Shown: positions 30,667-51,455 of the stretch, one piece after another | How positions within the stretch are numbered: the stretch's first letter is position 1 | How the letters are laid out: each line of letters starts with the position of its first letter | Made by a program: the position numbers and the translations under genes | The notes under the pieces: model-generated | The model's input: the letters and a program-made list of their open reading frames with translations, nothing else | Database searches by the model: none | What the model was told of the DNA's origin: nothing | Assembly (NCBI RefSeq): GCF_901538355.1 | Contig: NZ_LR593887.1 | Location: forward strand, 1,054,001-1,118,000 | Direction: 5' to 3' | DNA: 64,000 nt | From: Tuwongella immobilis | Lineage (GTDB): Bacteria; Planctomycetota; Planctomycetia; Gemmatales; Gemmataceae

Positions 30667-30823
30667 ACCGGTCCCGATCTGGATCGAGCTGACCGAAACG
30701 GGATCGGGAGTCTCCGATTCGTTTGCGTTGCTGATTCGATTGGATTGGTGGCGCTCTTGCGAATGCGCTAAGTATCCGATACCATGAAGACTGAGCGATG
30801 CTTGTACCATCCGGGGATAGTTG

Positions 30824-37366: not shown

Positions 37367-39625
37367 TTAGCGGCGTGGGGTTTGCGTGAGACTGCGCTGG
37401 ACGGCGTCGATGAAGGCGGCTTCTTGCACGGGCTTGGCGACAATCTGCCATTTCGGGTCGATCAATCCCAAGTAGATCAACAAGTCGCGCGGTTGGGATG
37501 CCAAGGCGATGGTGCGCAAGCCGGATTGGGCCGATTCCAATTCTTGTACCAATTCTCGGCAGGATGTTTGTGGCAACGGCACCTGCGAGATCAACAGTTG
37601 CAGCCGATCCATGAGCGGAAGTGCCGAGACGAGCGCTTCGCTGGCATGCCGACAGGGAACTGGTTCGTATCCCATCGGTCGTAGCCACTCGGCAAGTTGG
37701 TGGCGCAGTTCGCGGTTTTCTTCGACAATCAGCGCCACGGGGCGATCCGCCGGGAGATACTCCCAGAGTGGGAAGTAGAGCCGCACGGTGGTGCCCTGGC
37801 CGGTGGTGGATTGAATGGCGATGCCGCCGCCGATGCGGTCCATCAATCCGTAGGCGGCGGCTAATCCGAGTCCGGACAAGCGTTCGCTACTGCCACGGGT
37901 GCTGACAAGCGGTTCAAACAAGCGTTGTTGCATTTCGGGGGAGATGCCCGCGCCGGTGTCGCTGGCTTCCAGAACGATGTATTCGCCGGGTTTCAGGCGG
38001 GGCAGGATATCGGCTTGCCATTCGCCGGGCTTGGCGCGACGAAGCGTGAGATTCCATCGCCCGCCGGCGGTGAGCGCATCGCGTGCGTTGGCGGCCAGCG
38101 CGGTCAGAATGTTGCGAACTGCCCGAGGATCGGCGGCGATCGGCGGAAACGAGTTGGGCAACTCCAGATTCAGCGAGTTGGCCGGGCCGAGCAGTTCGAG
38201 CAACTCCGTCCGCATCGAACCGAGCAGATCGACGAGATCCAGTTCCGATTCCATCAACACGCTGGCACCGGCGAATTCCGTGAGCTGATTGAGCACTTGC
38301 GATTGGCGGGTCAGCCCTTCGGTGATTTGCTCGGCATATTGGGCAGCGGCTTCGGGATCGGCGATTTCGCGGTTGAGATGCTGCAGCATCAGTCGGCTTT
38401 GGCCTTTGAGTCGCACGGCGGATTGATTGAGCCGCACGGCGACTTGGCCCAGGACGCGCTGCAACGCATCGAGCAGGCGCATGCGTTCGCGGGGGGCGTC
38501 GGAGAGGCCATCTGCGGGGAGGGGGACGAGCACGGCGATGGTGGCGCGGTCGGCGTCGGCGGTCAGTCGGGCCAGCCGCAGCAGCACGGGCACGCTCGGA
38601 TCGCCTGCAGCGCGAATGAGTCCTTCGGTTTGGGTGCGTTGGCCGTTGATGACGGCGGCGAATGCTTCCATGACTTTGGGACCGTCGAGCGGTTGGACGA
38701 GGTCCAATAAGGATCGGCCCAGCGTGGCACCGTTGCCCAAGAGTTGGCTGGCGAGTGGGGACAATTCTTGCAATCGGCCCGATGCGTTGAGCGTGCCGTA
38801 GCCGACCGGGAATTGATCCAGTAGCGACCGCGATTGTCGGGCCAGGCGGGTGGCTTCGCGGATGGTGGCGGTGGCGGTGTCGGGGCGGAAGGCGAAGACT
38901 AGCCCGGCCATTTTGCGGTCGGTTTTGGTCATTGCGGTGAGATTCACCAGAATCGGCAGATGGCTGCCATCGCGTCGCAGCAGCACCACGGGCTGGCCGC
39001 TTTGCTCCAAATCTTCGCCCGCGCGGCGACTCGCCTGACATTCGATGGGGGCGAGCGTTTCGGGGTGCAAAGTCGGCAGCACCTTCAGGTAATCTTGGCC
39101 GATGGCGTCGTTGGCGTCCCAACCGGAAAGGGCCGCAGCCACCGGGTTCATCATGGTGATGCTGCCGGTGACATCGGTGGCGACAATTCCCAGGTCGGCC
39201 TGTTCGAAGACCATTTGCCGCAATTGATCGATTTGCAGATTGCGACTGCGTTGATGGCGCAACAGGGCCAATTCCAGGAAGGGGGCCAAGGATGCCCAAT
39301 CGAACGGAAGGTGCAGATAGGCCAATGGTTTGAGCGATTCGGCTCGATCGAATGCCTCGGCGGTTTTGGGATTGCCGACGAAGATGATTCCGAGCCGTTG
39401 TCGCTGTTGGAGTTGCTGGGCGAGATCGATGCCGTCCATCGGCCCGGTCAAATTGGGATCGACCAAGGCCAAGGTGGGGGAGACTTCGACGGCTTTGCGA
39501 AGGGCGTCGGCCACACCGGCGGTATAGACCGTGTGGCCCAAGAGACGGAGTTTGTCTCGGAAGACAATGGCTTGTTCCGGTTCCACTGCGACCAGGATGA
39601 CCACTTTCATTCCGATGCCGTCCAT
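37367..39625 (-). CDS. Hybrid histidine-kinase-like protein, REC-PAS-PAS-HATPase-REC
   Basis: The 752-residue soluble product starts with a receiver-like domain (about 6-125) that keeps the phospho-acceptor position D56 (LALVDPNL) but has a single acidic residue in VAVEPEQ and no conserved Lys (YLHLPF). PAS domains follow (about 140-260, GIVATDVTGSITMMNP; and about 290-380, GYGTLNASGRLQELSP), then a dimerisation region without a canonical H-box. An HATPase domain has ASDTGAGISP and LSGLGLAAAYG. The C-terminal receiver reads LLISQVPLP, with Gln where Asp is expected. It is the last gene of the 11-gene cluster, 14 nt after the preceding stop. An ATG at 39610 is an alternative start. Confidence 0.85.
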   Translation of the reverse strand: MDGIGMKVVILVAVEPEQAIVFRDKLRLLGHTVYTAGVADALRKAVEVSPTLALVDPNLTGPMDGIDLAQQLQQRQRLGIIFVGNPKTAEAFDRAESLKPLAYLHLPFDWASLAPFLELALLRHQRSRNLQIDQLRQMVFEQADLGIVATDVTGSITMMNPVAAALSGWDANDAIGQDYLKVLPTLHPETLAPIECQASRRAGEDLEQSGQPVVLLRRDGSHLPILVNLTAMTKTDRKMAGLVFAFRPDTATATIREATRLARQSRSLLDQFPVGYGTLNASGRLQELSPLASQLLGNGATLGRSLLDLVQPLDGPKVMEAFAAVINGQRTQTEGLIRAAGDPSVPVLLRLARLTADADRATIAVLVPLPADGLSDAPRERMRLLDALQRVLGQVAVRLNQSAVRLKGQSRLMLQHLNREIADPEAAAQYAEQITEGLTRQSQVLNQLTEFAGASVLMESELDLVDLLGSMRTELLELLGPANSLNLELPNSFPPIAADPRAVRNILTALAANARDALTAGGRWNLTLRRAKPGEWQADILPRLKPGEYIVLEASDTGAGISPEMQQRLFEPLVSTRGSSERLSGLGLAAAYGLMDRIGGGIAIQSTTGQGTTVRLYFPLWEYLPADRPVALIVEENRELRHQLAEWLRPMGYEPVPCRHASEALVSALPLMDRLQLLISQVPLPQTSCRELVQELESAQSGLRTIALASQPRDLLIYLGLIDPKWQIVAKPVQEAAFIDAVQRSLTQTPRR

Positions 39626-39639
39626 TCCGCCCCGAGAAA

Positions 39640-40179
39640 TTATCGCACACCTGCCGGGACGCGCGGAGCGGCGGCTCCACTGCGTCGTTCGCCCACTTCG
39701 GCCTTGTGCGGCTCGGGGATGTTGCATAGCCGCGAGGCGATGTGGTCGAAATACGGACGATTCAATTCATACGTCTGCGGTGTGAGATGCTGTTGTAGGT
39801 ATTTGTCCCACAATCGGCAGGCATCTTGCATGAATTGCGGCGTCAGGTGAGCCGCTTTCATCATCGTGCAGACCCAGAACAGGCAGGCTTCGTCCAGCCA
39901 GCGCTTGTCGTCCATGAGCATGGCGTTGGCGGAGAAGGTGTGGTACAGCTCCAAATCGCGGCGGCCTTTTTCCCAGCCTTGCGGGTGGTATTGTTTGAAT
40001 CGCGGATACATCACTTGGTATTCTTCCAGGATGTCATCCACGATTTCTTTTTGCTTGGTCCGCATTTCATCGTAGGCGGCGAGTCGATCGGCAAACGAGG
40101 CGACATAATCCGCGACCGCCGACTTTTCGCCGGGCGTGGGGTAGCGTTGATCCAGTCGCACCATCAGATTCGTTAACAT
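39640..40179 (-). CDS. Phycobilisome-fold (globin-like) protein, second copy
   Basis: The 179-residue product is all-helical. Its central part GRRDLELYHTFSANAMLMDD followed by WLDEACLFWVCTMM fits the phycobiliprotein pattern RRD...YYLR..TYALLAGD...LDE..L.GLRE.Y in order and spacing, so I assign the globin-like phycobilisome fold. The match is weaker than for the upstream gene. No Cys stands at the canonical bilin position before RD. The basic tail after residue 160 looks disordered. AAGGAG lies 9 nt before the ATG; the gene starts 24 nt after the upstream stop. In Synechocystis the comparable operon includes an unnamed small protein next to the phycocyanin-like one; whether they correspond needs alignment. 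Confidence 0.6.
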   Translation of the reverse strand: MLTNLMVRLDQRYPTPGEKSAVADYVASFADRLAAYDEMRTKQKEIVDDILEEYQVMYPRFKQYHPQGWEKGRRDLELYHTFSANAMLMDDKRWLDEACLFWVCTMMKAAHLTPQFMQDACRLWDKYLQQHLTPQTYELNRPYFDHIASRLCNIPEPHKAEVGERRSGAAAPRVPAGVR

Positions 40180-40203
40180 GCGTTGTGCTCCTTGCCGGGG
40201 GCG

Positions 40204-40674
40204 TTAGACCGGGGTGGCCACGGCCAGTGCATCGGTAATTTGACTGAGATACGGTTCCAGAATGCCCCATTGCGAAACGCCCAGCTTTTCCGCCAACAGC
40301 GTTTGCAGCAGGTGATACGGGGCGGCAACCACCTCGGCGGGAATCTCCAGATTCCGCACCAGTGCGGTCAGGTGATCGGTGACCCGATATTGCAGCAAGC
40401 GTGGATCATCCGCCAGCATCGATTGCACCACCACCCGCATCGACTCGATGACATCGCGCACGAATCGCTGGTTGTAGCAGGTGCGTGTGGGATGCTGCCG
40501 GGCGAGTTGGGTAATCAACTCGCGTTCCAGCCAGGATTCCATTTTCTCGATTTCTTCGGCAACGCGCATCCGCGGAGTCACGGAATTGACATACGTGCGA
40601 ACTTTATCGAGTTCTGCCGGCGTGAAGAATCGCTCGTTCACGCTGTAGAGCATTTCGTTCAGCCAGGGTGTCAT
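40204..40674 (-). CDS. Phycobilisome/allophycocyanin-like protein without bilin Cys
   Basis: The 156-residue product follows the phycobiliprotein template closely. FFTPAELDKVRTYVNSVTPR (16-35) matches the YLSAEEL..IR.YV.SG..R helices; FVRDVIESMRVVVQSMLADD (71-90) matches CLRD..YYLR..TYALVAGD; DHLTALVRNLEIP (100-112) matches GLREMY.SLGVP. The chromophore-binding Cys position is Phe71, and the only Cys is C66, so covalent bilin attachment at the usual site is not expected. Non-covalent tetrapyrrole binding or a purely structural role remain possible. It overlaps the upstream V4R gene by 4 nt (ATGA), indicating tight co-translation. Confidence 0.75.
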   Translation of the reverse strand: MTPWLNEMLYSVNERFFTPAELDKVRTYVNSVTPRMRVAEEIEKMESWLERELITQLARQHPTRTCYNQRFVRDVIESMRVVVQSMLADDPRLLQYRVTDHLTALVRNLEIPAEVVAAPYHLLQTLLAEKLGVSQWGILEPYLSQITDALAVATPV

Positions 40675-41399
40675 GCGCGGTCCTCTGCGGTGGCGGTGGC
40701 GGTGGATTCTTCGGCTGCGGGTCCGGGATCGGTCAGGCTGAGCAATCGCTTGAGAATCGCGTCGTGCGGAATCGTGGTATTGGGCACCGATTTATTCAGC
40801 CAGGCTTCGATTTCCGCGATCGCTGGCGTGGAAGCGATCAGGAACTTGCAACTTTCCGCACCTTGGGAGGGGCAATCGGTTTGCACCGCTTCCAGCGCTT
40901 GCCCGGAGAGATGCGAGAAAATCGCGCCGAGCATTCCGGCCATCATCAAATCTACCGGGCGATCCGATTCCGGCACCAGCGCGGGCATCATGGAGTTGCG
41001 CAGATCAATCAGCACCACGCCGCGATCCAGCAGGGTGAAATCGATGCGCAACTTCCCCCAGCCGTGATAGTTGAACGCATCGGCCAAGCAGGTGTGAACG
41101 ATGCCGGTGCTGAGTTCGGCGAGCGGGGTTTGATAATACGCGGAAATCTCCGTGTCAAACCGCTTGATGAACTGCACCCCCCAGCGGCGACCAACGGCTT
41201 TGAGCACTCGCCGATACGATTTGCCACATTCGAAGATGACCGCATCTCGAAATCCGGTGACAAAGTCGTTGGTCACCGCGCAGATGCGGGACTTGGTGGG
41301 CGTGCGCGTGACACCGGTGGCGGGATCGGTGGTGAAAAATCCGGGCTGGGCGTAGTAATTGCCTTTGAGCCGCAGCGGTAGATCGACTGTGTCCGACAT
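40671..41399 (-). CDS. V4R (4-vinyl-reductase-like) domain protein 1
   Basis: The 242-residue product begins MSDTVDLPLRLKGNYYAQPG. A conserved N-terminal part (FFTTDPATG, VTNDFVTGFRDAVIFECG) leads to a V4R domain: GWGKLRIDFTLLDRGVVLIDLRNS, then TDCPSQGAESCKFLI with the typical Cys pair C176 and C184. V4R domains are small-molecule-binding modules first named from the bacteriochlorophyll protein BchJ and related to heme/NO-type sensor folds. AGGAG is 5 nt before the ATG. It is a paralogue of V4R protein 2 two genes upstream, sharing the D-P-x-x-G and [ST]-x-D-F motifs, and overlaps the phycobilisome-like gene. Confidence 0.82.
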   Translation of the reverse strand: MSDTVDLPLRLKGNYYAQPGFFTTDPATGVTRTPTKSRICAVTNDFVTGFRDAVIFECGKSYRRVLKAVGRRWGVQFIKRFDTEISAYYQTPLAELSTGIVHTCLADAFNYHGWGKLRIDFTLLDRGVVLIDLRNSMMPALVPESDRPVDLMMAGMLGAIFSHLSGQALEAVQTDCPSQGAESCKFLIASTPAIAEIEAWLNKSVPNTTIPHDAILKRLLSLTDPGPAAEESTATATAEDRA

Positions 41400-41407
41400 G
41401 GGAACTC

Positions 41408-41716
41408 CTACACAACAACCCGTTTGGCTTCTGAGGATGAACTTGCCGAGACGCTGCGGTCGGGTTTGCGAGACCACGCGGGCGAGGCAAACAATCGGCG
41501 TAACGGTCGCTGGCTGGCTTGGGGCAAGTCGATTGCCAGGCCGCCGGATGCGGAGGGGGCCGGTGCGGGAGAACCCGAACCGACGCTGCGAGTCACCGGG
41601 GCGCTTCTCGAACGGGAGGCCTCGACGGAACTGCTTGACGAATCAGCAGTTCCGGCAGGTTTGCCCAGTCGTTCCCAGGTGCGTTTCAGCGGGAGTTTGG
41701 AGATTGATTCGCTCAT
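41408..41716 (-). CDS. Small Ser-rich basic protein in the V4R cluster
   Basis: The 102-residue product begins MSESISKLPLKRTWERLGKP and is dominated by Ser, Pro, Arg and Ala (SSSSSVEASRSRS, SVSASSSSEAKRVVV), so it is probably disordered. I recognise no family. I accept it as a gene because it fills the space between the two V4R genes exactly (12 nt after one stop, 8 nt before the next start) and has GAGGGG just before its ATG. Ser-rich basic proteins beside Ser/Thr kinases are plausible phosphorylation substrates or flexible linkers; both are guesses. Confidence 0.6.
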   Translation of the reverse strand: MSESISKLPLKRTWERLGKPAGTADSSSSSVEASRSRSAPVTRSVGSGSPAPAPSASGGLAIDLPQASQRPLRRLFASPAWSRKPDRSVSASSSSEAKRVVV

Positions 41717-41728
41717 GGGCCCCTCGAA

Positions 41729-42520
41729 TTACATCTGCGAGACTTTGCGGATAATGTCGGCGGCGGTCGCTCCTTCACTGCGCCAGAACGCGGCAGCATC
41801 GACTCGTTCGTAATCCGACACCAGGAATCGGCAGTGATCTTCGCCCGTGGAATAGCATTGCATTTCCACGCTGCCCAAACTGCGGCGGGCCAAGACGCTG
41901 AACACGGCGGCGAACAATCCCGCGTAGAAGTAGCAGACCACCGCGCCAATATCCCCCAGCGATTGGGCGACGGCGGATTCGTACAAATCGACGTAGAGCA
42001 ATCCCTTGTCTTTTTGCCGGAAGTCGAACCGCCAAGTGCCCCACCCTTCGACGGTCAGCGGCCACCACCAGGTTTCCAGCAAGAAATCGACGCGCTGCTT
42101 ATCGAGTTCGGCTTCGAATTCGGCTTGTTGCCGACGCAGGAAGCCACGCATGTCTTCCATGCCCCACTGGTAGCCGCTCTTGTACATGATTTCGCGGGCC
42201 GCATTGATGCCCACTTCATCTTCCAAGCCGCCCAGCATTGCCACCATGAAATCTTCGGAAACCCGCATCATCCGCTGCCCATACGGGTTGAAGATGGTCC
42301 CCTGGTTGGGATCGTGCAGGTAGAATTTTTGATCGAAATAATGATTGTGCTGATAGGCTTGCGTGCCCACCTGCGGGACGATTTGCGTGCGAATCCGGCC
42401 ATCGCTGACACCGGGACGACGCAGAAACGACATCGATTTCAAATCCGCCTTCTCTTTCCAGAACAGTTGCAAGGTCTGTTCCGAGGGGCGGTCGATCGAT
42501 TCATCGAAATTGACGGACAT
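41729..42520 (-). CDS. V4R (4-vinyl-reductase-like) domain protein 2
   Basis: The 263-residue product begins MSVNFDESIDRPSEQTLQLF. The N-terminal part carries HYFDQKFYLHDPNQG and VSEDFMVAMLGGLEDEVG, paralogous to V4R protein 1. The V4R domain follows (about 155-235): GWGTWRFDFRQKDKGLLYVD, a hydrophobic helix VVCYFYAGLFAAVFSVLARR, and MQCYSTGEDHCRFLV with C222 and C230. The paired Cys may bind metal or heme by analogy with related folds. AGGA is 8 nt before the ATG. It is separated from the ferredoxin gene by 118 nt containing a strong hairpin, so its level may be set separately from the upstream genes. Confidence 0.85.
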   Translation of the reverse strand: MSVNFDESIDRPSEQTLQLFWKEKADLKSMSFLRRPGVSDGRIRTQIVPQVGTQAYQHNHYFDQKFYLHDPNQGTIFNPYGQRMMRVSEDFMVAMLGGLEDEVGINAAREIMYKSGYQWGMEDMRGFLRRQQAEFEAELDKQRVDFLLETWWWPLTVEGWGTWRFDFRQKDKGLLYVDLYESAVAQSLGDIGAVVCYFYAGLFAAVFSVLARRSLGSVEMQCYSTGEDHCRFLVSDYERVDAAAFWRSEGATAADIIRKVSQM

Positions 42521-42584
42521 GGCGTTGTCCTATCTCCATGCTTCGGGGGAAGCGGGTGATTCGGGGCGGTCCCAAGGTTGCGAG

Positions 42585-42617
42585 TGGGGCGAGGGCGGAT
42601 TGGCGCCCTCGGTCCCA
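42585..42617 (-). other. Intra-operon hairpin between ferredoxin and V4R-2 genes
   Basis: CGAGGGCG at 42590-42597 and CGCCCTCG at 42604-42611 form a perfect 8-bp stem with a GATTGG loop; outer bases TGGGG and TCCCA extend it to about 13 bp with one bulged G. No T tract follows on the minus strand, so it is more likely an RNA processing or stability element, or a partial terminator, than a full stop. Confidence 0.5.
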
Positions 42618-42638
42618 GTCGGCGAATTTGTCGGCGAA

Positions 42639-43106
42639 TCAGTCTTGTTGCAGTTTCTTCAGGTCGGCGGCGATGTCGTTGCAGATCTTCAGCATCGTCC
42701 GGGTGATGAGTTTCCCCTTGGGGATCATCACTTGCCCGGTGATGGCGTGGCGAAAATCCTTGTCCGCTTCTTCGCCGATGTACTGCATCAGCTCCTCGGC
42801 ACTCTTCAGGTACATGCCCACGGGCACTTCCACGACAATGCCTTCATCCAGCACCGAACATTGGCAGGACAATCGGCTATCCTGATCGGTATCGGCGATG
42901 AATCCCAGCGTGCGCATTTCGCGCTGCGTTTGCGGCGACAGCTTCGATTGCCCCTGGCGGACGTAGACGTGGCAGGTGGCACACAACCCGCGACCACCGC
43001 ACGCCATTTCGACCTTCAGCGCCTTGGAGAGCAAGCCATCCAGCAGGCTTGCCCCGGTGATGACGTGAGCCGTGGTATCAATCGGCTTCAGTTTAATCGA
43101 CTTCAT
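42639..43106 (-). CDS. Plant-type [2Fe-2S] ferredoxin with C-terminal extension
   Basis: The 155-residue product begins MKSIKLKPIDTTAHVITGAS and has the cluster motif C36-x5-C42-x2-C45 (CGGRGLCATC) plus C81 in RLSCQC, with a further C83, so it should carry one [2Fe-2S] centre and pass electrons. About 55 residues after the usual end (from MYLKSAEELMQYIGEEADKD) form a helical extension that may bind a partner. It sits between the membrane histidine-kinase-like gene (45 nt upstream) and V4R-2. From memory, the comparable Synechocystis ferredoxin (Fed5, slr0148) is phosphorylated on Thr by the kinase encoded in the same operon. Confidence 0.92.
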   Translation of the reverse strand: MKSIKLKPIDTTAHVITGASLLDGLLSKALKVEMACGGRGLCATCHVYVRQGQSKLSPQTQREMRTLGFIADTDQDSRLSCQCSVLDEGIVVEVPVGMYLKSAEELMQYIGEEADKDFRHAITGQVMIPKGKLITRTMLKICNDIAADLKKLQQD

Positions 43107-43151
43107 CGCTTGGCCTCTTCCGGGTGCTTCGCAAGGGAGCGTGATCGAGAA

Positions 43152-44846
43152 TTAGTTGGCATATCCCAATCGCCAGCCGCCGCAGGTTTCTTCTTCCGGG
43201 GCGGAGCTGGTGATCGGTTCTTCCGGGCCGGCTTCCACGTGGCGCGACAATCGCGTGGGCAATTCCAACGTCACTTCCAACTGATTCGAGGCATCGCTGG
43301 ACAGCGTAATTCGTCCTTCCATGGCGGCGGCCAATCGACCGGCCAGCAGCAGACCCAGCGGGAAACCACCCGAGGTGTATTCATCCACGGTGATGCCTTG
43401 CGGTCCTTCAAACGGGCGGCGCAACTGATCGAGCTGTTCCGGGGTCAATGCCGGACCCGCGTCCCGAATCGAAATCAGCAGATGATCCGTCGGGGCGGCG
43501 GCATCGCCATATCGGCGTTCCAGCGAAAGTTCAATCGTGGAACCCTTCACCGAGTCGTTGGCATGCGTCAGCACACCCACCAGCAGGGCGTTGAGATAAT
43601 CGGCATCGCACAGAATCCAGCCGCCTTCGTCTTGAATGCGCAGGATGTTGTTGCGTTCGGCCAAGCGCGGGGCCAACTTGTCTTGGGCTTCCCGAATTGC
43701 TTCCACGGCCATGAATTCCGAGGGATTCTGTTCCGGCAGCCCGCCCCAGATCGCCAGGTACAGCCATTGCAGCGAATCGACAAACGCGGCCTGACGCTTC
43801 GTGTGATCCAATACCTGTTTCAGTTTGGGCAGCAGTCGATCGCGATAGCCGAGTTGCTTCGATTCCTGAATCAGGAATTTCGCCAAGTTTTGCACATCAT
43901 GCAGCGGCTTGGTTGCTTCGCGGAGCATGCGATTGCTCAGCGATTTGATTTCGCGCTCGCGTTCTTGAGCGATGCGGTTGGCTTCGGCGGTTTTGCGGCG
44001 GGTCAATTCGCGGCCCATCAGCACCACGGCGTTCGAATTCTTCGCGGTGTTCGCATCGTTGCTGAGCAATTCCATGGGGAAATGTCGGCCACTGCGATCG
44101 TGGGCGGTCACTTCGATTTCGCCGTGCCCGCTCAGGCTGAGCCAATCCAGCACCGGCACCCCGGTGGGAGCGTGACCATTGCGTTGAGCCGGGGTCAGCA
44201 GCGTCGAAAGCGGTTTGTTTGCCCAATCGGTGCGGGTTTGGCGGAACAGGCGTTCGCCAGCGGTGTTCATCATGCGAATGCTGCCGCGAACATCGGTGAC
44301 AATTACCGCTGCGGGAACTTCCTGGAGGATTTGCCGCATGGTGGTCGCCTGTTGCCGCGCCGCCCGAACCGCCTTCGCCAGGGCATCAAAGGTGCCGCCC
44401 AGCGATTGATTCACCAGCGGGAAGGGAGATTCGGCGACGAGCGTGGGCAGTGTGGTGCTATCGGCGGTGAGTTGGTGCATCGCTTGGCCGCATCGCTCGA
44501 ACGCGACTTGCGCTTGGGCCAACTGATCGGCCAAATGTTGGCGACGCCCTTCCAGCAACTCCAATGCTTCGGAGAAATCGGCGGCCATTCCCGTGACCGG
44601 GGGCAATTCCGCGCCAACACTCCCCCGAGCGTAGCCATCTGCGGCGGCGGCCAATCGCCCCAGTGGGCGCGTCAATAGCAGCGATGCCGCGACCGCAGCC
44701 GCCAGCAGCACCGCGACCAAGCCCCAATACAAACCGGCGGATTCGCCAGCCGAAACCACCATCGGCAGCACACCGACCAAAATCACGGGCACTCCCGCCG
44801 CCAAGGCGAGCGTTCCGCGGAACAGATTGGCACGAGACGAATTCAT
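43152..44846 (-). CDS. Membrane histidine-kinase-like protein (2 TM, HAMP, PAS, HATPase)
   Basis: The 564-residue product begins MNSSRANLFRGTLALAAGVP and has two membrane helices (about 11-33 and 38-59) with almost no loop between them. A HAMP-like stretch (LTRPLGRLAAAADGYARGS), a helical linker and a PAS domain (about 175-285: AAVIVTDVRGSIRMMNTAGERLFRQ) follow, then a kinase-like core. The presumed dimerisation helix (REATKPLHDVQNLAKFLIQE) lacks the usual H-E-x-R/N box, and the ATP-binding part has unusual boxes (VLTHANDSVKG, IRDAGPALTP). It may be a weak or inactive kinase working as a sensor scaffold. It lies 57 nt after the upstream Ser/Thr kinase gene. Confidence 0.82.
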   Translation of the reverse strand: MNSSRANLFRGTLALAAGVPVILVGVLPMVVSAGESAGLYWGLVAVLLAAAVAASLLLTRPLGRLAAAADGYARGSVGAELPPVTGMAADFSEALELLEGRRQHLADQLAQAQVAFERCGQAMHQLTADSTTLPTLVAESPFPLVNQSLGGTFDALAKAVRAARQQATTMRQILQEVPAAVIVTDVRGSIRMMNTAGERLFRQTRTDWANKPLSTLLTPAQRNGHAPTGVPVLDWLSLSGHGEIEVTAHDRSGRHFPMELLSNDANTAKNSNAVVLMGRELTRRKTAEANRIAQEREREIKSLSNRMLREATKPLHDVQNLAKFLIQESKQLGYRDRLLPKLKQVLDHTKRQAAFVDSLQWLYLAIWGGLPEQNPSEFMAVEAIREAQDKLAPRLAERNNILRIQDEGGWILCDADYLNALLVGVLTHANDSVKGSTIELSLERRYGDAAAPTDHLLISIRDAGPALTPEQLDQLRRPFEGPQGITVDEYTSGGFPLGLLLAGRLAAAMEGRITLSSDASNQLEVTLELPTRLSRHVEAGPEEPITSSAPEEETCGGWRLGYAN

Positions 44847-44903
44847 GGCTCGGGTTCCATCAACGGGTACGAAAGCGAAGGGAGAATTCCATCCGCATTG
44901 GCC

Positions 44904-46115
44904 TTAGGGTGCATCCAACCGAAGGCCAAACGCGGTATCCAGTTCCGTGAGCAATTCGTCATACGATCCCGGGCGACGTTCCGGGATTTTGTCCAACATC
45001 CGCAGCACCAATTGCGAGACGGCCGGCGAGATGCCCGGCACAAAATGGTGCAACGGCGTCGGCGTTCCATGGCGATGCCGTTCGATAATCGCATGCGTCG
45101 TCGCCGCTTCGGTCGGCAGGCCACCGCCCAGCATTTGGTACAGCACCAACCCCAGCGCGTAGATATCCGCACGAAACGAAGCCGCGTTCTCGAATAATTC
45201 CGGGGCCATGTACAGCAGCGTGCCTTGCAGAATCGGCGAAGGCGTATCCCACGCTTTCGCTTCGATTAGCAACGGCTGACGGACCCGCGAAATTCCGAAA
45301 TCGGCGAGTTTGTAGGTTCCTTCCAGCGTACTCAGCACATTCGACGGCTTGACATCCAAATGAATGACGCCCATGCGATACGCCGCTCGCAGCCCCCGCG
45401 CCACCTGCACGGCAATGCTGTATGCGCGGGCCGGCTCCAAGCGATTCGCATGCCGTAGCGTATGCTGCAGGCTGTCGCCATCGACATATTCCAGCACCAT
45501 AAACGGCGGGTCATGCTCCTCCAGATCCAGCACGCGCACAATGTTCGCATGGTTCAGTCGGGCCAGCAGTTTCGCCTCGGTGCGAAATTGCCGCATGAAC
45601 GCATCCAGCGGAATCGGCCCACTGGGATCAAAGACTTTCAGCGCGACCAAAATCCCCAACGTGCCATGCGTGGCTAGGAAAATCTGACCCGCGCCGCCGC
45701 TGCCCAACAAGCCTTTGATGAGGAATTTGTTGATGCGTTCGCCCAGTCGAAACAGCATGCGTTTCCGCGTAACGGAACTGGTGCCAGCATCGCCATTTCC
45801 AACGGCATCCGAAGTGGCCAACGCAGTCGATTCGGGAGCGGCAGCATCGGCGGCAAGTCGTTCAAATTCCGCACGCAATTGATTGGTTTGCAGCAATTGC
45901 CGCAAATCCAGTTCATCGTATTCCTGCCGATATGCCAGCAGAATCGCCCGAGCCGCCACCCGTGAAACAATTCCACGTTGAACCAGATAATCCAGCAGCG
46001 ATTCTTCCGGGGAATGGCCCGCCCGCAGGGTTGGCAGCAGTTCCAGCGTTTTGGCGTCGATTCCGGCAATGCGGCCCAGCACGGTCCGGACATAGGCATC
46101 GGTTTCGTGCTTCAT
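44904..46115 (-). CDS. Ser/Thr protein kinase with HLD catalytic loop
   Basis: The 403-residue soluble product begins MKHETDAYVRTVLGRIAGID, with an N-terminal helical module shared with the next kinase (LLDYLVQRGIVSRVAARAILLAYRQ). The kinase domain (about 130-395) has LLGSGGAGQIF, K160, E180, a catalytic loop H252-L253-D254 (HLDVKPSN) instead of HRD, DFG at 272-274 and APE. Lack of the loop Arg makes it a non-RD kinase, so activation-loop phosphorylation is probably not how it is switched on. No membrane segment. Its start overlaps the stop of the upstream kinase by 4 nt. Together with that kinase it is a candidate to phosphorylate cluster proteins. Confidence 0.92.
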   Translation of the reverse strand: MKHETDAYVRTVLGRIAGIDAKTLELLPTLRAGHSPEESLLDYLVQRGIVSRVAARAILLAYRQEYDELDLRQLLQTNQLRAEFERLAADAAAPESTALATSDAVGNGDAGTSSVTRKRMLFRLGERINKFLIKGLLGSGGAGQIFLATHGTLGILVALKVFDPSGPIPLDAFMRQFRTEAKLLARLNHANIVRVLDLEEHDPPFMVLEYVDGDSLQHTLRHANRLEPARAYSIAVQVARGLRAAYRMGVIHLDVKPSNVLSTLEGTYKLADFGISRVRQPLLIEAKAWDTPSPILQGTLLYMAPELFENAASFRADIYALGLVLYQMLGGGLPTEAATTHAIIERHRHGTPTPLHHFVPGISPAVSQLVLRMLDKIPERRPGSYDELLTELDTAFGLRLDAP

Positions 46116-47623
46116 GAATCACTCCCGGGACGGCGAGGCGTGGGCCGTCGCAGAAACGATACCGACCGAATCGTTGATGAGCCGGGCTTGCGCGGCGATT
46201 TGCCGGTCGCCAATCGTGTTAAGCCTGGGAGCAGATTCCCGGCGGCGGAATGATTCGCTGGCGCATCCGAACTGCGGCGATTATGCGGCACCAACGACCG
46301 CAATTCCCGGAGCAATTCGCCATAATCCGCGTGCCGATGGTCGGGATGTTTCGCCAGCATTTTCAGAATCGTCGCATCGGCATCGGGCGAAATTCCCGGC
46401 ACCAATTGCGAGGGCGGTTGCGGCTGCTCTTGCGCTTGCGCGGCGAGCATGGCCGCCAGCGATGCCGCCCGAAACGGTAACCGACCGGTGAGCATCTGGT
46501 AGAAACTCACGCCCAACGCATACATGTCCGCACGCGGATCAATCGTCGGGGTCGCCGTCAGTTGTTCCGGGGCCAAATACGCGGCCGTGCCGACAATCCC
46601 GCTGGCATCGGTCTGGATGCCATACGCCGACACTGCCGCCGCATCTTGGGCCAACGCCAATCCCAGATCCGCCAGCTTGACGCTGCCATCTTTGCCCAGC
46701 AGAATGTTGGCCGGCTTGACATCGCGATGCACCATTCCCAAGCCCCACACGGCTTGCAGGGCTTCGGCGATTTGCGTGGTGATCGCCAACGCGCGGCTGA
46801 ATTGCAGCGGGCCGGCCTGTTGCAGCAGCTCCGCCAGACTCGACCCCTCAATGCATTCCATCACCACAAACGGCGTGTGCGGATCATCCTCGAAATCCAG
46901 CACGCGCACCAGATTCGGATGATTCAACTGGGCCAGCACCCGCGCCTCAGAGCGGAGCAGGTCATACGCTCGCCGATTCGCCACCAGCGATGCATGCAGC
47001 ACTTTGACGGCCACGGTCATATTCAGCACCGAATGCAGGGCTCGATAGACCATCCCTGCCGACCCACGACCCAGCAACGCAATCAGCAGATACTTGCCAA
47101 GCGACGTGCCGATCTGCGGCATCCCATCGCCCATCCGTCCCGCAGGGGGAGTGCCCGGCGAAATCGGAGCCGCTGCCGAATACCCCGGCGTGGTATATCG
47201 ACCCGGGGCGATCGCATGCGGTGGCGATGGTGACGCATACCCGGCAGGGGTATGTGGGGCGGATGCCGGAACGGTGGTCGGCTTCGGCGGCGCACTCGCC
47301 GCTGGACTCGCTGCCGTGGCGTGGCTGGAGCCGAAATGGTTGCTGGTCCCCAACAGGGCGAGTTTTTCCAACTCCGCACGCAGGGCATTGGTGGCGATCA
47401 ATTGGCGGAGGTCGGCTTCGTCCAATTCTTGACGATACGCCAGATGAATCGCCCGCGCGGCCACTCGTGACAATAGCCCCCGCGATACCAGATAATCCAG
47501 CAGCGACACTTCTTCGCCACTGGCCAATAATCCCAACGAAACCGGGGCCATGCGCGTGCCGTCCAGGCCGGTCAACCGGGCCAGCACCATGCGAATGTAG
47601 GTTTCGGTGGGATCGCTCATCAT
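46112..47623 (-). CDS. Ser/Thr protein kinase, cluster copy 2
   Basis: The 503-residue product begins MMSDPTETYIRMVLARLTGL and shares the N-terminal helical module (LLDYLVSRGLLSRVAARAIHLAYRQ) with the downstream kinase. A Pro/Ala/Ser-rich linker (about 96-168) leads to a kinase domain with LLGRGSAGMVYRA, K207, H299-R-D301, DLG at 319-321 in place of DFG, and APE. No membrane segment is visible, so it is cytoplasmic. The C-terminal tail is basic. Tandem ATGs sit on the stop of the upstream kinase gene (ATGATG over TGA), so the three kinases are translationally coupled. Confidence 0.92.
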   Translation of the reverse strand: MMSDPTETYIRMVLARLTGLDGTRMAPVSLGLLASGEEVSLLDYLVSRGLLSRVAARAIHLAYRQELDEADLRQLIATNALRAELEKLALLGTSNHFGSSHATAASPAASAPPKPTTVPASAPHTPAGYASPSPPHAIAPGRYTTPGYSAAAPISPGTPPAGRMGDGMPQIGTSLGKYLLIALLGRGSAGMVYRALHSVLNMTVAVKVLHASLVANRRAYDLLRSEARVLAQLNHPNLVRVLDFEDDPHTPFVVMECIEGSSLAELLQQAGPLQFSRALAITTQIAEALQAVWGLGMVHRDVKPANILLGKDGSVKLADLGLALAQDAAAVSAYGIQTDASGIVGTAAYLAPEQLTATPTIDPRADMYALGVSFYQMLTGRLPFRAASLAAMLAAQAQEQPQPPSQLVPGISPDADATILKMLAKHPDHRHADYGELLRELRSLVPHNRRSSDAPANHSAAGNLLPGLTRLATGKSPRKPGSSTIRSVSFLRRPTPRRPGSDS

Positions 47624-48999
47624 GGATTGTCTCCCGTGCGATTGCCGAGCAATCGGCGAACGAGTTGCGAGCGGATCACCATCGATTCGGACTGAACGGT
47701 TTGCGGCGATTGCGGCAAGGTCGGCGTGGCAGAGCCGCCCATCGCGTCCATTGGCCGACGGAAGCCCGGCACCAATCCCCGCAAGGCCGTCAGCAGACTG
47801 GCGTAGCTATCGAAGCGTTCTTCCGGCTTCTTGGCGAGCATCTTCAGAATCACTTGCGAAGCGGCGAGGGGGAGGTCCGCACAATGCAGATGCGGCGGCT
47901 CGGGCGTTTCCGAAGCGTGGCTGACGAGCATCGCCGCCAGCGTGGTCGCCTGGAACGGCAGCCGACCCGTGACCAATTGGTAGAAGGTAATGCCCAGCGA
48001 ATAAATATCCGCTCGCGGATCGACATTGCCGGGATTGGTGAACTGTTCGGGGGCCATGTAGGCGGCGGTGCCCACGATTCCGCCCGCGCGACCGGCCACG
48101 CCATGCAGACTCGCTTGCGAGTGATCGACGACCATCGCCAAGCCCAGGTCGGCGAGTTTGGCAACGCCGTCTTTGGTGAGCAGAATGTTCGCCGGCTTGA
48201 CATCCCGGTGGATGATCCCCAGCCCCCAGACGGCTTGGAGCGCATCGGCAATTTGCGTGATAATCGTCAGAGCACGTGGATATTCAAGCGGGCCGGCCTG
48301 TTGTAACAGATCCGCCAAGCTGAGCCCTTCCACGCATTCCATGACGACATAGGGGGCACGGGCATCATCTTCAAAATCCAACACCCGCAGAATGTTTGGA
48401 TGGTTGAGTTGGGCCAGCACGCGGGCTTCGGAGCGCAGTTGTTCGTAGGCTTTGCGATTCTGGACAATATTTTCGTTTAATACCTTAACGGCCACCGAGA
48501 TATTTAAGCCTTGATGCAGGGCACGATAGACCGTTCCGGCCGCACCGCGACCTAATAACGAAATTAACAAACATTTTCCCAGTTGGCTCCCGATTTGCGG
48601 CATGGGAACGGCGGTGCGATCGGTCGTTGTGTTGGAGCCAAATAATTCAACGGAGACCTGAGAAGTATGTTGAAGCGAGGATTTTCCGGCCAAGGTGGAG
48701 ATGGTTGGCGGGGAGGTCCAACGGGCGGGGCGTTGGCTGAGAGATTGAAGGATTGCCCAGCGTTGGGAGCCTAATAACGGCTCGGCGTCGCCCAATGTGA
48801 TTCGGCCTCGGCTGGTGAGTTCTAATAATCGTGAGGCGTGGGCATGAAACAATTGTTGTCGAACTAAGAATGCCGGGAATGATTCACCGGTCATGGCCTG
48901 CGTTTGCCACGATTGTCGGAGAAATTCGGCACCGGCGGCACCGCAACTATTGCTGGCCGCGAGTAGTTCCAACACCAGCGAGTTGGTCGTGTCTTCCAT
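47620..48999 (-). CDS. Ser/Thr protein kinase, cluster copy 3 (first gene of the cluster)
   Basis: The 459-residue product begins MEDTTNSLVLELLAASNSCG. Its N-terminal region is a divergent version of the module in the other two cluster kinases. The kinase domain (about 140-410) has LLGRGAAGTVYRA, K172, H264-R-D266, DLG at 284-286 and MAPEQF. I chose the ATG at 48999 because it aligns with the paralogues; an upstream in-frame ATG at 49107 would add 36 residues without similarity but is closer to a possible -10 box (TATAGT, minus strand, 49140-49135). This is the promoter-proximal gene of the co-directional group ending at 37367. Confidence 0.88.
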   Translation of the reverse strand: MEDTTNSLVLELLAASNSCGAAGAEFLRQSWQTQAMTGESFPAFLVRQQLFHAHASRLLELTSRGRITLGDAEPLLGSQRWAILQSLSQRPARWTSPPTISTLAGKSSLQHTSQVSVELFGSNTTTDRTAVPMPQIGSQLGKCLLISLLGRGAAGTVYRALHQGLNISVAVKVLNENIVQNRKAYEQLRSEARVLAQLNHPNILRVLDFEDDARAPYVVMECVEGLSLADLLQQAGPLEYPRALTIITQIADALQAVWGLGIIHRDVKPANILLTKDGVAKLADLGLAMVVDHSQASLHGVAGRAGGIVGTAAYMAPEQFTNPGNVDPRADIYSLGITFYQLVTGRLPFQATTLAAMLVSHASETPEPPHLHCADLPLAASQVILKMLAKKPEERFDSYASLLTALRGLVPGFRRPMDAMGGSATPTLPQSPQTVQSESMVIRSQLVRRLLGNRTGDNP

Positions 49000-49107
49000 G
49001 CGAATCTCGCAGAGGGGGCGGATACGAATTCGCGTTCCGGGCGATTCTTTGTTACGAGTCACGATCGCGCCGAATGAGGCGTGAGAATGGGAGGCTAAGG
49101 GGACCAT

Positions 49108-49683
49108 CCAACTCTCACATCACCTGTTAATTCGACTATAACGGATGATATATCCGAGTGCGATGGATTTTCGCGTTTTTTCGCCGATTTCAAGAGATTT
49201 TTGCAAGCTGTTGTGCTGGAGAAATAACTTTCAGATGTGGGTATGCATTGGCCAAAAATGATTTCATATCACATCCTCAATTTTCAGATCCGTGTCGAGT
49301 TTCCGGGCGAATCCTCGCCGCGGTGGATTGTGTCTCACATCTCAATTCTCAGGAGTTTTCGTGAATTCGGTCGTTTTGCTCGATTGGCGGATGGGCCGCA
49401 CGCACGCGGCAGCCATGACATTCCCGATCGGATCCGAGGTAAAATCGAGTCGAAAATAGGCGTGGCTTTCCACAGGTGGACAGGCGGCGGATCCCGTCAA
49501 GCTTTCCAGAAAACCGTGCGATTTGCTGTTTCTGTATAGTACAATATGCATTGATTGTATGCGATTTGGGTGAACTTCTTCGTTTCTTCACAAGAACTGA
49601 ATCATTTAATTGTAATCCACAAGTAGACTGTCCTCACCGAAACACTGGTGATTCGGATGTCGATTCGCAATCGGAGGCCCATC
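49108..49683. other. AT-rich divergent intergenic region, about 575 bp
   Basis: It separates the minus-strand kinase/V4R/ferredoxin cluster from the plus-strand lipoprotein gene and is clearly richer in A and T than the flanking genes. Short open frames cross it but none has a ribosome-binding site with a family-like product. Promoters for both directions are expected here: a minus-strand TATAGT at 49140-49135 lacks a good -35, and near 49531-49545 a TATAGTACAAT stretch faces the plus-strand gene. A small GCCGC/GCGGC hairpin lies near 49395-49411. Confidence 0.5.
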
Positions 49684-50133
49684 ATGTTCCATCGAATCGC
49701 TCGCCCATCTTGGCTGATTGGTCTGAGCCTGTTGCTGGTGTGTGGATGCGGCAAGCCTCCGTTTGTCCCGGTCACTGGCACAGTCACCATGAATGGCCAG
49801 CCGTTGGCCCAATGCAAAGTCGGATTCTTTCCCGATGGCGAATTCGACCCCGATCGCTCCGGATACGGCTTTGGCATCACCGATGCCCAGGGCAAGTACG
49901 AAATCCAGCATCCGCAGGGCGAAAAGGGCATCTATCCGGGAAGCTACAAAATCACGCTGGTGCTCTGGGTGGATAGCAAAGGCAACGTGTTGCCCTTCGA
50001 CACCAAGCCCAGCGAAGTCAAAGGGGGCGTGAAAAACAAGCTCCCGGCGAAGTACGAATCTCCATCGTCCACCCCCGAGAGCGTTGTGGTTCCTTCGGGT
50101 GGGACGACCAAAGACATCGCCGTTGCGGGCTAA
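49684..50133 (+). CDS. Lipoprotein with transthyretin/carboxypeptidase-regulatory-like domain
   Basis: The 149-residue product begins MFHRIARPSWLIGLSLLLVC and has a lipoprotein signal with Cys in LLVCGCGKPP, so it is probably anchored to a membrane. The remainder is a single beta-sandwich of the planctomycete type (VTGTVTMNGQPLAQCKVGFF, YGFGITDAQGKYEI, GIYPGSYKITLVLWVD) common in small lipoproteins next to DUF1559 genes. GGAGG is 7 nt before the ATG at 49684. A DUF1559 gene follows 78 nt downstream on the same strand. No enzymatic function is expected. Confidence 0.88.
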   Translation: MFHRIARPSWLIGLSLLLVCGCGKPPFVPVTGTVTMNGQPLAQCKVGFFPDGEFDPDRSGYGFGITDAQGKYEIQHPQGEKGIYPGSYKITLVLWVDSKGNVLPFDTKPSEVKGGVKNKLPAKYESPSSTPESVVVPSGGTTKDIAVAG

Positions 50134-50211
50134 TCCGTGGCGGTCGATTGGCTTGTTTTCGGTGTTGACGTGGTACTGTCGATTCGTTTCAGCCAACATG
50201 AGGTGGCGAAG

Positions 50212-51267
50212 ATGACTCGGAATCGGACTCGCTCGGCGTTTACCCTGATTGAACTGCTGGTCGTGATCGCAATTATCGCTATCTTGATCGGCTTGCTGTT
50301 GCCCGCAGTTCAAAAGGTGCGTGAAGCTGCGTCCCGCATGCAATGCCAGAACAATCTCAAGCAGATTGGCATCGCCTGCCATGCGTTCCATGATGCCCAA
50401 AACGGCTGGCCGTTGGGCGCTGAATTCAACGTCGGTTCCGCGTGGTCGGCATTCTTGCTGCCCTACTTGGAACAAGAAAACATGTATCGTGGGTTGTCGT
50501 TCCGGGAAGATACCGGCGTGAACGATCAATGGGCACGGGGGCTGCCCGGCGCTCCGGGGAACTTCTCCTCCGCAAGCGCCACCGATCGCAACATTGCCGC
50601 CTGCGAAACCCCGCTGAAGATGTTCCGCTGCCCGTCTGCGGCGTTGCCGGAAGCGGTCGCGGATATTTCCGGCGATAACTGGATTGTGCAGCGTCGTGCC
50701 CCGGCCAGCTACCTCGGCTGCGTCTCCGGCGTGCTGACTGCGGATTATCGCAACCCCGCTCGCATCGATGATCTCGATGGCATCTTCATCGCTCGCCGAC
50801 TGAATCAACGCGTCGCCCATGCCACCAACACGGATAACAGCATGGCCAACGGCGTGACGATGACCAGCATTACCGATGGCACCTCGAACACGATCGCCGT
50901 CGGGGAAGCACTGTTCGACATCCGCGATATTCCGCTGATGGGATCGACCCGCGAAGTCAACGGTCTGGCCAATGCCGGTGCCCGTAAGGAACACTGGATC
51001 ATCGGATCGGACGATGTCGATACCAGCGGCCAAGGCGATATGTCGGAGTTCCTCGGTTCGACGGGCGTGCCGATGAATCTGCAAAAGGTCGCTGCCGGTA
51101 GCGCGGCGTTCGATGCCTACGAATTTGGCTTCGGCAGCCGTCACACCGGCGGGGCCAACTTCCTGTTCGCCGACGGTGCGGTTCGCTTCCTGCGAGATAA
51201 CCTCGCCGCCAATGTGTATAGCGCACTGGGCACCCGTTCGGGTGGCGAAGTCGTCAACCTCGACTAA
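50212..51267 (+). CDS. DUF1559 domain prepilin-like protein
   Basis: The 351-residue product begins [20 protein letters not shown] with a prepilin-type cleavage and membrane helix, then [16 protein letters not shown]. The C-terminal DUF1559 motif is [18 protein letters not shown]. It is a paralogue of the DUF1559 protein at 35043-36122, and like that one it follows a small beta-sandwich protein gene, suggesting a conserved two-gene unit. GAGG is about 8 nt before the ATG. A large hairpin lies 30 nt after its stop. Surface location is inferred from the prepilin-like N-terminus. Confidence 0.93.
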
Positions 51268-51296
51268 TCCGCGACTGGGGATGATCGCAATTGCTG

Positions 51297-51340
51297 CCGC
51301 TCGCCGCGTGATGCTCCCCGGAGCCTCGCCCGGCGAGCGG
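51297..51340. terminator. Strong nested hairpin after the DUF1559 gene
   Basis: CCGCTCGCCG at 51297-51306 pairs perfectly with CGGCGAGCGG at 51331-51340; inside it GCTCC and GGAGC form a second short stem. No T run follows, so it may be a factor-assisted terminator or an mRNA 3'-end stabiliser. Confidence 0.5.
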
Positions 51341-51455
51341 TCTCCATTTGTGCAGCGCAACGATTGGGGGGCGGCGGTTGCTTGTCGGTGTGGGCGGGAT
51401 TGTCTACAATCGACCGAGTGTGACCGGGAGCGGGAGACTTGCGAGAGGGTTTGCG

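Follow-up and report, generated by a model that had tools for sequence, protein, structure and literature searches.

Tuwongella immobilis (Gemmataceae; one-contig genome of 6.69 Mb, labelled G000) carries an operon of eleven co-directional, closely packed genes at positions 37367-49107 on the minus strand of the stretch of DNA that was analysed (64,000 nucleotides, nt; hereafter the window). The operon encodes three Ser/Thr kinases, two histidine-kinase-like proteins, a [2Fe-2S] ferredoxin, two V4R proteins, a small Ser-rich protein, and two globins with a predicted phycobiliprotein fold. Its sequence places the operon with the known bilin clusters of BBAG globins, V4R proteins, and ferredoxin, as a variant of Gemmataceae ("type 2"). 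Twelve Gemmataceae genomes, including that of the window, share the core set and its order, and heme oxygenase (HO) lies beside most of these clusters. The link to HO and to bilin reductase (FDBR) is the strongest clue to function; it was missing from an earlier reading of the window made from the letters alone (hereafter the sequence-only reading), which compared the operon with slr0144-slr0152 of Synechocystis. We tentatively favour the view that the type-2 operon encodes a biliverdin-responsive complex with Ser/Thr-kinase output, which we consider possible rather than probable. Because its clusters are compact, lack a bilin reductase, and in six of the 12 genomes occur without any phytochrome match, type 2 is a natural system in which BBAG function becomes testable.

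Cluster architecture and distribution

BBAG clusters have been described in heterotrophs, including Planctomycetes (pre-1), and tied to bilin synthesis (Rockwell, Martin, and Lagarias 2023, PMC10151467), so that kinship with the cyanobacterial operon is already known. The same source reports that BBAG-1, -2, and -3 proteins bind bilins, states that the functions of BBAGs, which are close relatives of light-harvesting phycobiliproteins, are not yet known, gives a CXRD motif for the BBAG-1/BBAG-3 globins that it examined, and sets aside cluster-neighbour genes for want of conservation evidence; in its main text the word "kinase" occurs once, in the reference list. The pre-1 and pre-3 clusters in that paper share with type 2 an Fe-S protein, clade-A and clade-B V4R proteins, one or two BBAGs, and bilin enzymes. 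Type 2 differs in its V4Ra-V4Rb-BBAG1-BBAG2 order, a predicted pseudo-histidine-kinase, kinases of a family labelled KP, loss of the CXRD Cys from both globins, and the lack of a bilin reductase (pre-PcyA) in the cluster, although the cyanobacterial clusters of the paper also lack the latter (PMC10151467). No earlier description of the type-2 cluster was found in the open-licence PubMed Central (PMC) literature, a scope that does not take in the supplement of PMC10151467.

A V4Ra scan gave 248 named loci (labelled L; genomes are labelled G). Profile models were used to map the best 80 of them, on which the per-phylum counts rest, along with some further stretches. Type-1 clusters follow, with gaps and variation, the order STK-FDBR/HO-Fer2-V4Ra-x-BBAG-V4Rb-STK, where STK is a Ser/Thr kinase and Fer2 the ferredoxin. 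Type-2 clusters have the order (STK)-HKTM-Fer2-V4Ra-(small)-V4Rb-BBAG1-BBAG2, where HKTM is a membrane PAS-HATPase protein. V4Ra, V4Rb, and two BBAGs occur in all 12 type-2 clusters, and Fer2 in 11 (not in L038). The locus maps thus show conserved gene order among planctomycetes, which the sequence-only reading had named as a result that would support it. HKTM is present in all nine type-2 loci that were found through V4R and phycobilisome searches, and its profile model was built from the window protein and one other of those nine. When 102 genomes of the order were searched with the HKTM alignment (13 candidates scored per genome), 14 genomes had matches at E<=1e-25 and 12 at 6.8e-89 or better. 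In each of the 12 best genomes the HKTM belongs to a type-2 cluster, and three of these clusters (L216-L218) had not come up in the V4R and phycobilisome searches. A membrane sensor kinase "gained here", as had been proposed, is therefore not what the distribution shows. For the last gene of the window operon, HKhyb, none of the 11 remaining type-2 clusters has a counterpart mapped in this position. Type-1 parts are scattered in the T. immobilis genome: FDBR at ~79 kb, V4Ra-BBAG-V4Rb at ~3.78 Mb (L035:9002-10963), and STK-HO-Fer2-STK at ~4.80 Mb (L040:6445-12872).

The sequence-only reading called the operon a planctomycete version of the cyanobacterial one. The direction may be reversed because the cyanobacterial cluster has been inferred to descend from heterotroph clusters (PMC10151467). 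Recent transfer from cyanobacteria was rejected: planctomycete V4R, Fer2, and BBAG sequences are not nested in cyanobacterial clades.

A further arrangement occurs in Pirellula-type clusters (L052-L055, L059-L062), in which an open reading frame (ORF) of ~760-820 amino acids (aa) after V4Rb opens with a BBAG domain (e.g., L053:11309-13705). The ORF of L053, the sole one scanned, matches PF00502 at 4.2e-17 and no other Pfam family over the cut-off. No kinase matches were found within these Pirellula-type loci.

Heme oxygenase and bilin reductase

HO lies beside ten of the 12 type-2 clusters. In six it directly follows BBAG2 on the same strand, which is the place occupied by HKhyb in the window, and in the other four it flanks the cluster at one end, in the opposite orientation. 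FDBR occurs in none of the 12 clusters and, genome-wide, in two of the 12 genomes: that of T. immobilis (C1:79312) and that of its sister, G005. A survey anchored on the bilin reductase gene would therefore miss type 2. All seven FDBR-bearing genomes among 59 also carry PF00502, the phycobilisome family. Phytochrome matches occur genome-wide in six of the 12 type-2 genomes, with a weak match in G005 (8.1e-5). Six genomes (G001, G063, G064, G089, G091, and G094; 86-99% complete) have a cluster HO and neither an FDBR nor a phytochrome match, which makes the BBAGs the obvious bilin receivers there. No HO, FDBR, or HKTM match was found within the stretches examined at 46 cyanobacterial loci.

Phytochrome-like matches occur near four cyanobacterial clusters (L079, which was confirmed, L088, L095, and L101). 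In G082, a second cluster-type ferredoxin match lies between HO and the downstream kinase of the type-2 cluster (L216:6043-8456).

Phycobiliprotein-fold globins

BBAG1 (40204..40674; all operon genes are on the minus strand) and BBAG2 (39640..40179) match PF00502 at 3.5e-11 and 8.4e-14, respectively. AlphaFold2 models of both have phycobiliprotein folds, with pLDDT of 95.2 for BBAG1 and 93.6 for BBAG2. Superposed on an allophycocyanin chain, each model matches over residues 1-152 (152 residues), with VIA Z 17.2 and a root-mean-square deviation of 3.1 for BBAG1, and VIA Z 18.4 and 2.2 for BBAG2. Pfam and profile matches, the predicted fold, and the tree thus all uphold the phycobilisome-family assignment of 39640-40674 in the sequence-only reading. 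As in light-harvesting phycobiliproteins such as allophycocyanin, the predicted fold is full length, including the N-terminal helices, and the two chains are encoded in tandem; BBAG1 and BBAG2 may pair in the manner of phycobiliprotein alpha and beta. Type-2 globins nevertheless differ from light-harvesting proteins in belonging to a separate clade and in lacking the CXRD Cys. A careful globin tree was built from 74 chosen rows. In it, six Arthrospira phycobiliproteins split from the 68 others (100/99; here and below, supports are starred in our trees unless marked otherwise), and BBAG1 and BBAG2 form two type-2 clades (100/98 and 99/95). BBAG2 falls among planctomycete BBAGs (92/95, not starred); the placement of BBAG1 among BBAGs lacks resolution.

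FVRD replaces CXRD in BBAG1 of the window, and GRRD replaces it in BBAG2. Across the 24 type-2 BBAGs, the Cys is never present and the Asp always is; the Arg is kept in 12/12 BBAG2 and 1/12 BBAG1 sequences. Among the other planctomycete BBAGs aligned, the Cys is kept only in L057, and some myxococcal, Sumerlaeia, and cyanobacterial BBAGs have it. Photocobilins offer a comparison: their phycobilisome-like pocket holds biliverdin with no Cys involved, Asp270 makes key contacts, and a His in place of this Asp has been given as the reason for reduced binding (PMC10979010). This Asp270 probably corresponds to the Asp of the BBAG CXRD motif. Photocobilins and photoglobins resemble type-2 BBAGs as Cys-less globins with a phycobilisome-like pocket, and photocobilins couple biliverdin, held through a key Asp, to signalling; they are, however, fused to a B12 domain, whereas type-2 BBAGs are separate chains without one (PMC10979010). 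In Sericytochromatia, a 268-aa protein (L068:4120-4923) has two tandem BBAG domains according to the globin model.

V4R pair and ferredoxin

V4Ra (41729..42520) and V4Rb (40671..41399) match the V4R family at 1.4e-13 and 1.3e-8, respectively. In a quick tree of 88 V4R sequences chosen from 170, V4Ra and V4Rb separate into two groups, and both groups include sequences from planctomycetes, cyanobacteria, and elsewhere. The exception is one long V4Rb row (L074), which falls with V4Ra. The V4Ra and V4Rb sequences of type 2 make up a single clade each (99 and 99). From gene content, the two groups probably correspond to clades A and B of PMC10151467. V4Ra has a C-E-C-C pattern in which E and the second and third C are present in 86/86 sequences and the first C in 85/86, with one gap; V4Rb has Q instead of E in 78/84. 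As a single sequence, V4Ra aligns with PoxR, DmpR, and MopR and has weak matches in the Protein Data Bank (PDB; 0.002 to 0.091), although the V4Ra profile has no PDB match at E<=0.01. We take the C-E-C-C residues to be the zinc ligands of PoxR/DmpR/MopR-type V4R domains. V4Ra keeps the pattern of these sensor domains, which is mostly lost in V4Rb, and both proteins differ from them in being stand-alone, with no activator domain. Knowledge of the slr0144-operon V4R proteins is described as limited (PMC13174344).

The [2Fe-2S] ferredoxin (42639..43106; Fer2 2.7e-9) has a C-terminal extension. Its nearest solved relatives are of the ISC/adrenodoxin type: Escherichia coli Fdx (1i7h; 2.3e-17 with the profile), another [2Fe-2S] ferredoxin, and putidaredoxin. 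In the Fer2 tree, cluster ferredoxins, including that of the window, stand together against 7/9 other Fer2 proteins (94/98, not starred), with background rows L143 and L145 on the cluster side; type-2 ferredoxins form a clade (96/94). Fdx5 of Synechocystis (slr0148) has also been described as closer to the bacterial ferredoxins than to those of plant type (PMC7363133). In the trees, V4Ra, V4Rb, and Fer2 thus group with cyanobacterial cluster members, as the sequence-only reading had supposed.

Histidine-kinase-like proteins

HKTM (43152..44846; PAS 1.2e-7, HATPase_c 1.1e-10) is the marker of type 2. An alignment of eight of the 12 type-2 HKTMs, with the His column set by a canonical phytochrome kinase, has the phospho-acceptor His in none; a nearby His a few residues on occurs only in the window and sister proteins. 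The N-box Asn is replaced in 8/8, by His in seven, and K330, Q331, and R335 are invariant. HisKA was not reported by Pfam at E<=1. An ordinary histidine kinase is thus rejected because both the phospho-acceptor His and the N-box Asn are lost, and HKTM looks like a pseudo-histidine-kinase.

HKhyb (37367..39625), with REC-PAS-PAS-HATPase-REC architecture and HATPase_c at 2.6e-15, has Val at the phospho-acceptor column, and its N box and G boxes look intact. The last domain, as we read it, has Ser at the expected position of the receiver Asp, and HisKA was not reported at E<=0.1. Both histidine-kinase-like proteins of the sequence-only reading thus lack a His at the phospho-acceptor column.

In G001, a second HKTM adjoins a Ser/Thr kinase whose best matches are KP kinases (L219:7397-10609), with no V4R or BBAG match within the 19 kb examined around it. 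This suggests that HKTM and kinase work as a pair.

Ser/Thr kinases

Three Ser/Thr kinase genes lead the operon: STK1 (47620..49107; 495 aa; Pkinase 1.4e-51), STK2 (46112..47623; 503 aa; 2e-48), and STK3 (44904..46115; 403 aa; 3.5e-43). Their catalytic Lys and Asp appear to be kept. The T. immobilis genome has 111 Pkinase matches at E<=1e-10 in 6.69 Mb, so that ~0.2 would be expected in 12 kb, against the three seen in the operon. A chance grouping in a genome rich in kinases was rejected, since KP membership and recurrence elsewhere speak against it and a kinase close to the operon (L154, below) falls outside KP.

A careful tree was built from 80 kinases, 37 of them background; 13 of 93 earlier rows (11 background kinases plus the L066 and L067 cluster kinases) were dropped as long or redundant. 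The L072 kinase fell below the score threshold and is in neither the 93-row nor the 80-row tree. SpkG itself is not among the tree rows, and the link to it is by position. The KP clade (100/98) comprises 25 kinases including STK1-3: 22 cluster kinases of both types and three of the 37 background kinases, all three from T. immobilis and one of them ~8 kb from the V4Ra-BBAG-V4Rb fragment. Within the tree, STK1 and STK2 pair (100/99), and STK3 forms a clade with four type-2 kinases upstream of the HKTM gene (99/96). A kinase ~8.5 kb from the operon (L154, window 28042-28815) falls outside KP.

A second clade (98/81) contains kinases at the SpkG position, downstream of V4Rb: seven cyanobacterial, nine type-1 planctomycete, and one myxococcal, with none of the 37 background kinases. 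The T. immobilis kinase of this type is the downstream kinase of the HO-Fer2 fragment (L040), ~3.7 Mb from the window. Three myxococcal kinases (L069, L070, and L084) join the group only at 86/44 (not starred), and the L068 kinase lies outside. In an earlier tree (82 rows, 20 background), the downstream kinases formed one starred group of 26. In the quick 93-row tree (48 background), the SpkG-position group has support of 84 (not starred) with one long background row inside, and L069, L070, and L084 lie outside. The grouping of cyanobacterial and planctomycete SpkG-position kinases suggests that a kinase joined the cluster early. A same-strand kinase starts <=450 nt from V4Rb in 22/43 cyanobacterial loci with room, 5/9 Gemmataceae type-1 loci, 6/9 loci of other phyla, 0/7 Pirellula-type loci, and 0/8 type-2 loci. 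In view of the tree, STK1-3 as SpkG-position orthologues were rejected; they fall in KP instead. The window operon shares with Synechocystis slr0144-slr0152 a homologous V4R pair, a [2Fe-2S] ferredoxin, BBAGs, and a linked Ser/Thr kinase, but STK1-3 are in a different clade from the SpkG-position kinases.

Possible function and alternatives

In the reading that we tentatively favour, HO would make biliverdin, plausibly with electrons from the cluster ferredoxin, and the BBAG1/BBAG2 pair would hold biliverdin non-covalently. In T. immobilis the ligand could be a reduced bilin because a bilin reductase is also present. The V4R pair, of which one member has the intact zinc-type pattern, would gate or deliver the tetrapyrrole. 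The bilin state would then be passed to the membrane pseudo-histidine-kinase and out via the adjacent Ser/Thr kinases, with no His-Asp phosphorelay. The sequences themselves show gene content, homology, and order, the loss of Cys with retention of Asp, the missing phospho-acceptor His, and the distribution of HO and FDBR. From these we infer bilin binding, complex formation, and signal flow, together with the stimulus, which could be light, heme or bilin level, or redox state.

This reading is based on HO beside ten of 12 type-2 clusters, with FDBR in no cluster and in two genomes, and on a CXRD Asp that is always kept where the Cys is always lost, given that photocobilins bind biliverdin without Cys via Asp (PMC10979010). 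V4Ra, V4Rb, Fer2, and the BBAGs are homologous to cluster members in cyanobacteria and other phyla; BBAG-1, -2, and -3 bind bilins (PMC10151467), and in Synechocystis co-fractionation and affinity purification indicate that Slr0144-Slr0149 interact (PMC9880817). The association of FDBR with PF00502 in all seven FDBR-bearing genomes and the phytochromes that adjoin two of the 12 type-2 clusters point the same way. Kinase output is suggested by the cluster linkage of KP, the HKTM-kinase pair of G001, and the absence of Fd5 phosphorylation in a mutant of SpkG, the last gene of the Synechocystis operon (PMC11863333).

Several observations weigh against this interpretation. HO is absent from the cluster in the window and in sister genome G005, and T. 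immobilis has its HO elsewhere, in the ~4.80 Mb fragment. Identity between window and sister proteins is 83% for V4Ra, 70% for Fer2, 55% for V4Rb, 41% for BBAG2, 34% for HKTM, and 31% for BBAG1; the fast evolution of both BBAGs compared with V4Ra, together with loss of the BBAG1 Arg in 11/12, means that the ligand could have changed. We are not aware that any planctomycete BBAG without the Cys has been tested for bilin binding. Ser/Thr kinases lie beside seven of the 12 type-2 clusters and were not seen beside five: L042 and L046 are contig-cut upstream, and L047, L217, and L218 have none in the stretch examined. KP may not be planctomycete-only because the myxococcal L066 kinase falls inside it in the quick 93-row tree. 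Several type-2 genomes are incomplete drafts, which makes calls of absence weaker.

A broader proposal, which we regard as doubtful, is that bilin-gated Ser/Thr-kinase signalling is an ancient role of phycobiliprotein-like globins, and that BBAG, V4R pair, ferredoxin, and kinase formed a complex before photosynthesis recruited its parts. Type 2 would then be a surviving form with HO alone, whose two Cys-less globins bind biliverdin reversibly and signal heme turnover or light to Ser/Thr kinases via a pseudo-histidine-kinase.

Alternatively, the cluster could encode a bilin-making or heme-degrading metabolon, in which V4Rs and BBAGs take biliverdin from HO and pass it on for use by phytochromes or for catabolism, with the ferredoxin supplying HO and the kinases only tuning the enzymes. 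The adjacency of HO and Fer2 favours such a metabolon, as does the action of SpkG on the cluster ferredoxin in Synechocystis (PMC11863333). Bacteriophytochromes also adjoin two type-2 clusters (L045:13760-16783 and L065:13184-16780) and two type-1 clusters (L058:295-4119 and L063:2-1531). Six of the 12 type-2 genomes have no phytochrome match, however, and a PAS-bearing, cluster-linked pseudo-kinase with up to three kinases exceeds the needs of a carrier, so that we consider a metabolon rather unlikely.

A redox or aromatic-compound sensor that has lost an ancestral bilin link is a less likely explanation again. By analogy with PoxR/DmpR, the actual sensor would be V4Ra, with the Cys-less BBAGs serving as apo scaffolds. 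V4Ra is the most conserved part relative to the sister genome, its C-E-C-C pattern is near-invariant, and it aligns with PoxR/DmpR/MopR, while the BBAGs evolve fast and the window has no local HO; HO beside ten of 12 clusters and the invariant CXRD Asp argue otherwise. To our knowledge, no photosystem partner is to be expected in Gemmataceae, which counts against the operon being a direct functional counterpart of slr0144-slr0152. Such a role, namely assembling or repairing a membrane redox complex, with kinases of SpkG type, is very improbable: the V4R pair, Fer2, and BBAGs are homologous and type-1 planctomycete clusters have SpkG-position-type kinases, but the window kinases are in another clade and the photosystem II role may rest on slr0150-slr0152 (PMC10151467, section 7).

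Operon boundaries and neighbouring genes

All eleven ORFs of the sequence-only reading are present, and Pfam matches bear out the domains that it named, with the start of STK1 moved to an upstream ATG at 49107; the ATG at 48999, which gives 459 aa, is internal M37. Adjacent genes overlap by 4 nt at STK1/STK2, STK2/STK3, and V4Rb/BBAG1. As read from the sequence, V4Rb more likely starts at ATG 41399, in a frame that is open to 41477, and HKhyb at ATG 39625 or 39610. The small Ser-rich protein (41408..41716; 102 aa) between V4Ra and V4Rb has no Pfam match, nor has its counterpart, a matching 108-aa ORF at the same place in sister genome G005. No match to TPR or to a second ferredoxin was found in the window operon proteins. 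Upstream of STK1, ~500 nt on the same strand (49108..49605) have no gene assigned and are a possible promoter region. Beyond them lies a 625-aa ORF (window 49606-51483, minus strand) with no Pfam match at E<=0.1. Two further Ser/Thr kinase genes, the first of which falls outside KP, lie near the operon, on the plus strand (window 27823-32596).

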